Below the pieces are notes generated by a model, which did no database searches, was not told the origin of the DNA, and worked only from the letters and a program-made list of their open reading frames with translations. A DNA stretch of 64,000 nt from Candidatus Hydrogenedentota bacterium (GTDB lineage: Bacteria; Hydrogenedentota; Hydrogenedentia; Hydrogenedentales; JAEUWI01): contig JAEUWI010000012.1 of assembly GCA_016791475.1 (NCBI GenBank), positions 1 through 64,000 on the forward strand, written 5' to 3'. The number at the start of each line of letters is the position of its first letter. Position 1 is the first letter of the stretch. Shown here in pieces: positions 135 to 4,775 of the stretch. Position numbers and translations under genes: made by a program.

Positions 135-161
135 TTGACAAAACCTTGGCTTTGCTATAGT
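135..161 (+). promoter_or_regulatory. Probable sigma70 promoter of the padR operon
   Basis: A perfect -35 hexamer TTGACA (135-140) is followed after 15 bp by TATAGT (156-161), five of six matches to the -10 consensus. The spacer is short. The element sits 46 bp before the padR start, and a palindrome (168-179) covers the expected transcription start. Prediction from sequence only. Confidence 0.6.
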
Positions 162-167
162 GTAATG

Positions 168-179
168 CAAGGTACCTTG
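168..179. promoter_or_regulatory. Palindromic operator candidate for the PadR regulator
   Basis: CAAGGTACCTTG is a perfect 12-bp palindrome immediately downstream of the -10 hexamer. Autoregulation by binding an inverted repeat overlapping the promoter is common for PadR proteins, so this is the likely operator. Binding is inferred. Confidence 0.5.
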
Positions 180-207
180 TTAAGCACTTATCCGGAGCCT
201 TTGTGGC

Positions 208-3305: not shown

Positions 3306-3308
3306 GTC

Positions 3309-4766
3309 ATGTCGGGCACGCTGAGCGAGACGATGGGAGTCGACGGCGCAACCCGCGCCGAGGGGAGGGACGTGTTCAGCTCGAACATGCTGGTTGTCGG
3401 GGTTGCTGTGCTTGGGTGTTGGGGCGCGTGGTGGCGTATGGGCGGGCAATGGTTCGAGCCGGGCTTCAATGCCAGCGGGCTGGCGACGATGGGGGTGGCG
3501 ATTGGGTTTGCGTGCTATCGCGCCTGGGCGACACGGCGGGAGGCCGTTCCGATTGCCTGGCCCTGGCTCTTTGCGTGCGCGGGGCTGCTCACCGCGTATG
3601 GGCTGCTCTACGGCGGCACGCCGAAGCTGGTAACGTCGCTGATCGCGGTGATGCTCGTGTCGGCGATACTCCTTGGCGCTTTGCCCCGCGAAGAGCGGCA
3701 GCGCGCCTGGGGGCTGGCGCCGTGGATGCTGGCTTCGCTTCCGCTGGGCGTTGCGGTGAACCTTTACTTCGGCTATCCCCTGCGTGTCGCGGTCGGATGG
3801 ATAGCGTCGGCAGTGATGATGGGGCAGGTGACGCCTCTGGGCACGGGCTTGAGCGACGGGACGCATACGGTCTTTGTCGACGCCCCCTGCAGCGGCATCC
3901 AGATGCTCCGGGTGGCGGTATTGCTGGCGGGGATATTGGCCGTGTTATTTAGGCTGCGTCTTGCGGGTACCGTGATCCTGTGCTTAAACGCGGTGCTGCT
4001 GGCGCTGGTGGGGAACACGCTCCGGGTTTGTGTGCTCTTTCTGCTAACGCGACGAGGCGACGTTAGCGATGCGCTTCATACGTGGTCGGGCCTGGTCATT
4101 TTTGCCGGCTGTGCGTTGGCGCTGGTTGGCGCGGGGGTGGCCATCGCGCGATGGCAGATTCCGGAGGTGCGGTCGAAGGGGAGTATCCGCGCGCAGTATC
4201 GACCGGTGGCTACCGTGAGCGGGGCCGCGTTTTACCTGGCCGCCTTGCTGGCCTTCGCCGTGCCTTTTGCCGTCGCCGAGCGTCCGCACGAAGGCGGGAA
4301 TTCCGTGCCCTGGCCGACGATGTTAATGGGAGAGCGATTTGTAGCCTCCCCGCCGGATCCGGCGCTGGCTAAGTATCGGGATATCTTTCTTGGGACGATG
4401 GTCCAGGGTGTTCTGGAGGCGAGTGGGCGATTGGTGCTGCTTCGTCAGTGTGTAGAGCCGACTTTGAGTCTGCACACTTCAGAGAATTGCTATGTCGTCG
4501 CGGGTTTCCAATGCGCGGCGCTACCCGCCGAGCGCGACGCGCAGGGCCATTTGTGGAGCCGCTTCAGCGCGGTTCATCCGGACGGGCGGTCGTATGTGGT
4601 GAGGCAGTGCTTTTTCAGTGTGGACTCGGGTTCAGTGAAGGCGTCGAATCGATTGGAAGACTGGACAACGGGGCGTCCGTCGTGGCCGGACTCTTCAAGC
4701 TGGTACTGGGCTGCGGCGCGTCCGGGGTCGGAGGTTGGGCATACTCTGGCGGTGACGATTGCGGAG

Positions 4767-4775
<9 letters not shown>
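3309..4775 (+). CDS. Exosortase/archaeosortase-family transpeptidase with C-terminal ectodomain
   Basis: A 488-aa polytopic membrane protein. The exosortase active-site set is visible: Cys194 in APCSGIQML, Arg239 in GNTLRVCVLF and His257 in DALHTWSG, each within or next to a membrane helix. About eight hydrophobic segments span residues 25-280. After a final helix near 300-318, a non-membrane domain of about 170 residues follows, comparable in position to the EpsI/DUF3485 part of fused exosortases; I cannot confirm homology. The family cleaves PEP-CTERM tails and moves the protein to the cell surface. It lies 3 bp after its presumed single substrate. The last codons and the TGA stop lie in the first unit of a heptamer array, so the C-terminus may vary between strains. 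Confidence 0.85.

Follow-up and report, generated by a model that had tools for sequence, protein, structure and literature searches.

A Hydrogenedentota operon joining PadR-HAAS regulation to a VIT-VWA protein and an adjacent exosortase, a candidate envelope receptor system

A three-gene operon in a Hydrogenedentota genome, read forward, encodes a PadR-family regulator (positions 208–579), a large HAAS / membrane / VIT-VWA protein with a PEP-CTERM tail (576–3305) and an exosortase (3309–4775). Judging from comparisons of sequence and modelled structure, we propose with moderate confidence that this operon specifies a HAAS-PadR-type receptor of the envelope. The co-transcribed exosortase would have the outer domain of this receptor as its single substrate, and PadR autorepression would hold receptor production in check.

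Operon layout and protein domains

The window (the whole stretch of DNA analysed, 64,000 nucleotides) is the start of contig C12, beginning at the contig end, in a genome of 7.7 Mb assembled in 529 contigs and 96% complete. A first, sequence-only reading had described the three genes as coupled by a 4-bp overlap and a 3-bp gap, and this layout is confirmed, with an ATGA shared between PadR and the middle gene and 3 bp separating the middle gene from the exosortase. The gene order is kept in nine other Hydrogenedentota genomes, so the arrangement is not a product of chance, and gene overlap or near-contact is maintained across the Hydrogenedentota loci. The locus starts at position 135 with the −35 box of a predicted sigma-70-type promoter (135–161, forward strand, read from sequence), consisting of TTGACA (135–140), a 15-bp spacer and TATAGT (156–161); a matching −35/−10 layout is found upstream of PadR in two congeners (L054, L063). 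The nearest genes 3′ of the exosortase encode OmpA-like, HAAS-DUF1559, acetyltransferase-like and redox proteins (the last two read by eye); these are not polysaccharide genes, and on this ground an exopolysaccharide-type locus is rejected. The HAAS-DUF1559 protein, 1.5 kb downstream (6295–7281), combines a second HAAS-like N-terminus (family-profile score 39 bits) with a DUF1559/prepilin-like segment (PF07596) in one fusion; it has no PadR of its own.

The first gene encodes a winged-helix regulator of 123 residues that matches PF03551 with 74.8 bits (cut-off 27) and TIGR03433 with 55.6 bits, below the cut-off of 101.8. Profile searches and an AlphaFold model (mean pLDDT 73) were used to delimit the domains of the 909-residue middle protein. 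At its start lies a HAAS-like domain (residues 14–71, 615–788), modelled as helical with pLDDT mostly 73–93; its PF22564 match of 17.4 bits is below the Pfam cut-off of 27, and seven of nine Hydrogenedentota homologues match at E≤0.01. Hydropathy and the model place a multi-helix membrane region at residues ~109–286 (900–1433), probably with five transmembrane helices, modelled with low confidence at residues 109–136, 148–166, 177–215, 219–240 and 249–286. A VIT domain follows (residues 410–507, 1803–2096; PF08487, E 2.4e-5), which at 24.9 bits falls below the Pfam cut-off of 26.5 in this protein and is matched at E≤0.01 in 9/9 Hydrogenedentota homologues.

The VWA-like domain (residues ~621–794, 2436–2957) gave no match in the Pfam sequence search of this protein, and a sequence search against the PDB returned no credible relative. 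Foldseek, by contrast with these sequence searches, aligns the AlphaFold model with human inter-alpha-inhibitor heavy chain 1 (ITIH1 6fpy, VIT+VWA) over 584 columns (E 3.6e-19), in which the VIT-VWA part of the model has pLDDT mostly 70–93. The MIDAS is degenerate, reading D627-G-S-A-G (DGSAG) and not DxSxS; DGSAS or DGSSS occurs in L055, L056 and L059 only. A VIT-VWA ectodomain, as first proposed, is thus supported by PF08487 together with the structural match to ITIH1, despite the degenerate MIDAS.

The protein ends in a PEP-CTERM tail (3207–3287, forward strand) composed of VPEPEEW, a hydrophobic stretch and RRKK, matching TIGR02595 with 17.4 bits on the protein (cut-off 16) and with 24 bits in the genome search. 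PEP-CTERM proteins have been described as always carrying some form of N-terminal signal peptide (PMC3237569); this one opens with the soluble HAAS domain in place of the typical signal peptide, and its first membrane helix comes at about residue 109. The VIT protein is PEP-CTERM-like in its tail, and not a typical exported PEP-CTERM protein.

The third gene encodes an XrtQ/XrtT-like exosortase of 488 residues, which matches PF09721 (62.2 bits, cut-off 25.7) and TIGR04178 (40.2 bits, cut-off 23). Alignment locates the predicted active-site residues Cys194 (3888–3890), Arg239 (4023–4025) and His257 (4077–4079) in membrane segments; Cys194 and Arg239 are invariant and His257 nearly invariant in A2, and exosortases adjoining the VIT gene at other loci show the motifs as well. 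These features, with profile scores above curated cut-offs, place the enzyme in the exosortase/archaeosortase superfamily. Fused to its C-terminus is an EpsI/DUF3485-like domain (4278–4772, from the XrtT alignment, positions to 422), a region encoded by its own gene in several relatives from the Proteobacteria. At locus L122 the equivalent is a separate 182-residue gene with a weak DUF3485 match (E 3.5e-4), aligning with XrtT 293–430.

One enzyme and one substrate

Full VIT homologues are present in 10 of 68 Hydrogenedentota genomes, and the exosortase in 10 of the 60 genomes searched for it, the two sets being identical and the genes adjacent in every case. The sole extra trace is a 40-codon remnant of an exosortase C-terminus (62% identity; L064, 5730–5849) in G034, which belongs to another genus of the same family; it is a decayed copy in a genome otherwise without the locus. 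A PEP-CTERM tail is present at all ten Hydrogenedentota loci and PadR is retained at nine, so that the loss of PadR and the tail from homologous loci in close relatives, which would have spoken against the first reading, is not the pattern seen.

A search of 12 genomes with a profile of the PEPxEW tail returned exactly one full-length match in 10 of them, and each time this match was the VIT protein (E 1e-12 or better). The exceptions are G035, which has no locus, and G015, whose tail reads PEPRDI and is off-pattern though an exosortase is adjacent. These hits are circular, since the profile was built from several of the same tails; the absence of others is not. For the window's own genome, tail profile A3 matches only the tail at this locus (E 8.5e-14). 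The same genome contains 11 other PEP-CTERM proteins above the cut-off and, on other contigs, two canonical exosortases (176 and 167 bits). Many other PEP-CTERM proteins in the genome had been named as a result that would count against a dedicated pair; such proteins do exist, but all of their tails are of the PEP[ATSR] type. In six of the ten genomes with a single PEPxEW tail (G006, G093, G094, G099, G100 and G101) no exosortase was found besides the adjacent one, and a search at E≤0.05 revealed no other PEP-CTERM protein; these are mostly MAGs, from any one of which a gene may be missing.

In a comparison drawn from 80 relatives of many phyla, a PEPx[ED]W tail was found at 19 of the 26 loci where an exosortase adjoins the VIT gene as opposed to 0 of the 44 where none does, and Trp at +3 after PEP at 25/26 as opposed to 13/44, a contrast whose Fisher test, like that for PadR and HAAS below, ignores kinship. 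Among 18 aligned tails from exosortase-adjacent loci, P-E-P and Trp are invariant. On a tree of the VIT core, exosortase adjacency changes at least seven times and tail type at least five times, with only two well-supported independent pairs to compare, and this number puts kinship-corrected significance for adjacency against tail type out of reach.

Taken together, co-occurrence in ten genomes, the PEPxEW tail type and the single-exosortase genomes make the pairing of one enzyme with one substrate, as first suggested, well supported at the level of gene content. The tail type and the single-enzyme genomes lead us to reject an ordinary PEP-CTERM protein served by a genome-wide exosortase. How exosortases act and select their substrates is difficult to investigate, in part because in many genomes a single enzyme serves numerous substrates. 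This locus offers a minimal pair of a single enzyme and a single substrate, whose distinctive PEPxEW code covaries with the private enzyme, and some genomes with the pair yielded no second exosortase. It is thus a very simple system for testing how exosortases choose their targets.

PadR-HAAS coupling and relation to known systems

The N-terminal HAAS-like domain had been read as fitting control by PadR, and the wider comparison supports this coupling: HAAS is present at 53 of 56 loci with PadR and at 2 of 20 loci without it (Fisher p 1.8e-12, kinship ignored). The two HAAS-bearing cases without PadR are L061/L074 of G021 and L115, and three loci have PadR with no HAAS match. The sole PadR-less Hydrogenedentota locus (L061 of G021, position 6868) is also the sole one in the phylum in which the HAAS GxP motif is changed, to GAA.

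Further support for the coupling comes from a recurrent putative operator. Just 3′ of the −10 box, the window contains a perfect palindrome, CAAGGTACCTTG (168–179), which we predict to be the PadR operator; it is the sole exact copy in the 7.7-Mb genome, and an exact copy precedes PadR in congener L063. A search of the genome for the exact operator thus revealed this single site and no wider regulon. The inverted repeat TACCTTG-N5-CAAGGTA, in full or as a single half, lies upstream of PadR at 33 of 57 loci and at none of 24 PadR-less loci, against a mean of 1.4 and a maximum of 5 for the half-site CAAGGTA/TACCTTG in shuffled controls. In three congeners the CAAGGTA half stands directly 3′ of the −10 box, a placement that would be expected of a repressor operator.

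The half-site also precedes PadR-HAAS loci with other outer parts. The Hydrogenedentota loci L029–L040 include 11 more HAAS proteins whose outer parts vary, being membrane-type or prepilin-like; 10 of the 11 adjoin a close PadR relative, and most have a TACCTTG/CAAGGTA half-site upstream. In congener G035, a PadR with 87% identity to that of the window stands directly ahead of a protein of the HAAS-DUF1559 type. This type of PadR and its half-site precede other HAAS proteins in the phylum, several of which have DUF1559/prepilin-like outer parts, and the dyad is therefore a reusable front end.

HAAS-PadR has been proposed, from gene context, as an alternative two-component system (PMC11237479, mSystems 2024), in a paper whose main text names no VIT domain, VWA, exosortase or PEP-CTERM. 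The operon described here resembles such dyads in having a standalone PadR gene immediately 5′ of a membrane protein with an N-terminal HAAS domain, and it shows their GxP motif (GKP, residues 66–68) and the PadR gene in the neighbourhood, here with the 4-bp overlap. It differs in that a single operon encodes both the HAAS protein, here a substrate of the exosortase type, and its enzyme.

Several known systems resemble the second half of the operon. XrtN (TIGR04476/TIGR04477) likewise comprises a VIT protein and a dedicated exosortase, and of the NCBIfam models TIGR04477 fits the middle protein best (E 1.9e-37); membership is rejected by the scores of 128.9 bits against 250 for the middle protein (TIGR04477) and 35.9 against 200 for the exosortase (TIGR04476). 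The nearest proteobacterial relatives have exosortases of the XrtQ class (NF012182, up to 177 bits), to which the window enzyme does not belong (58.2 bits, cut-off 270); its EpsI-like domain is fused, whereas this domain is mostly separate in XrtQ systems, and XrtQ tails read PEPGVW or PEPAAW where the window tail reads PEPEEW. No PadR or HAAS match was obtained near XrtQ genes. The best exosortase model is XrtT (NF033770), which aligns over the full length including the C-terminal domain (E 1.3e-16), again below the cut-off for membership (60.3 bits against 250). XrtN, XrtQ and XrtT are nonetheless relatives of the system described here.

In the XrtK/MSEP-CTERM system (TIGR04287/TIGR04286), a multi-helix VIT protein has its own exosortase. 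The sequence-only reading had likened the locus to this pairing; the scores (11.8 against 55 for TIGR04287, 29.9 against 150 for TIGR04286) reject membership, the window tail is PEP and not MSEP, and the XrtN-associated VIT protein (128.9 bits) and the XrtQ/XrtT-type exosortases turn out to be closer. A more distant likeness is the TIGR03784 sortase with its VIT-VWA-LPXTG target (TIGR03788), where a dedicated enzyme also adjoins a VIT-VWA protein (PMC3237569), differing in that enzyme and tail are unrelated to those described here.

Curated XrtQ enzymes adjoin a PEP-CTERM protein, the neighbour being a VIT-VWA protein in L190 (2734–6572, a genuine XrtQ) and a VWA protein in L188, which suggests that XrtQ is itself a VIT-dedicated exosortase. 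Given the XrtQ neighbours, the XrtN partner and a 2011 paper noting VIT-family proteins with dedicated sorting enzymes (PMC3237569), VIT proteins with private processing enzymes are a recurrent and known theme. We found no relevant paper in the open library searched that joins exosortase with a VIT domain, XrtQ, PadR or Hydrogenedentes. The suggestion that a PadR-coupled, multi-helix VIT-VWA system might be new needs dividing, as HAAS-PadR dyads and VIT/exosortase pairs (XrtN, XrtQ, XrtK) are each known, and it is the joining of both that appears to be new.

The two halves are also found apart. PadR-HAAS-VIT-PEP-CTERM loci without an adjacent exosortase are common in Verrucomicrobiota, Lentisphaerae and others, and VIT-PEP-CTERM proteins with an exosortase, without PadR or HAAS, occur in Proteobacteria, Acidobacteria and Synergistaceae. 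Both are joined in Hydrogenedentota, one Omnitrophota bin, a few Planctomycetota, Sumerlaeaceae and unassigned bins. On the distribution of its genes, the operon is a composite of two separable modules, and its first description as a self-contained locus does not extend to a single evolutionary unit.

Proposed mechanism and alternatives

In the receptor model that we favour, PadR would repress its own operon through the inverted repeat beside the −10 box, and the HAAS domain, at the N-terminus of a polytopic protein of the inner membrane, would be cytoplasmic. The ITIH-like VIT-VWA ectodomain may sense the envelope, and HAAS may relay its state to PadR, presumably by contact, thereby relieving or setting repression. 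The exosortase would recognise the PEP-x-E-W tail and remove or replace the C-terminal helix, such that the ectodomain would pass from a double-anchored state to one held by the N-terminal helices only, or by a new C-terminal moiety. Processing of the tail could be a step in receptor maturation or could itself constitute the signal. A built-in transcriptional read-out would come from the PadR-HAAS front end together with the recurrent operator.

In the boldest version of this model, the exosortase acts as a signalling protease, with clipping at PEPxEW altering the conformation of the receptor and HAAS passing the change to PadR, for regulation and not for sorting. We regard this version as unlikely; if true, it would represent a new signalling class. 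To our knowledge, a functional link between PadR and an exosortase would be the first sign that an exosortase takes part in signal transduction.

A further reading is that the exosortase serves only to mature the protein, by quality control or tail trimming, and that signalling would be carried by PadR, HAAS and VIT alone, as in Verrucomicrobiota; we take this to be a serious possibility, though not a probable one. The tail is kept at 37 PadR loci without an adjoining exosortase. Of 25 sampled genomes whose VIT gene has no exosortase beside it (PadR being present in most and missing from a few), 24 encode one at another site, so a generic enzyme apparently suffices for the receptor. Maturation alone, however, leaves unexplained the private enzyme and private tail code in ten Hydrogenedentota, as well as the persistence of the pair in genomes without another exosortase.

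It is doubtful that the operon is a surface-sorting cassette, in which the exosortase would cut the tail, the VIT-VWA protein would become anchored at the outer surface and PadR would merely switch production on. Substrates of the exosortase/PEP-CTERM, sortase/LPXTG and rhombosortase/GlyGly-CTERM systems are described as remaining at the surface (PMC11980579), VIT-VWA proteins bear all three tail types (PMC3237569), and XrtQ-associated VIT-VWA proteins are likewise PEP-CTERM-tailed. Against this, the cytoplasmic-type HAAS domain and several membrane helices, conserved in the family, would hold the substrate in the inner membrane unless there were a second cut, whereas the other PEP-CTERM proteins of the same genome mostly begin with a signal-peptide-like stretch. 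Cutting of the tail should thus neither export nor free the VIT protein, given its cytoplasmic-type HAAS start and polytopic membrane region, and the first interpretation of the locus, as sorting one large surface protein, is not sustained.

Similarly improbable is that PadR-HAAS, as an expression module in general use in these genomes, was by chance captured ahead of a VIT gene and its exosortase, leaving regulation and processing mechanistically unlinked. The separate existence of the two halves fits such a capture, as does the closely related PadR of G035, from the same genus and with the same operator, ahead of a HAAS protein with a DUF1559/prepilin-like outer part. Against it, the HAAS domain forms an in-frame fusion with the VIT protein and stays with PadR across phyla, and the genes remain in overlap or near-contact throughout Hydrogenedentota.

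The window also contains arrays of short repeats. A 7-bp repeat (GACAGTT) is present in about 30 copies at 4767–4980. This array starts within the final exosortase codons and its first copy contains the stop codon, so a change in copy number should leave the reading frame intact. The contig end carries a 10-bp unit, GGGTCTTATG (1–48), followed by a 9-bp array, the repeat region spanning 1–114. The same 10-bp unit recurs as an array at 39375–39440, and further hexamer arrays are found in the window at 27544–27740 and 28009–28284.
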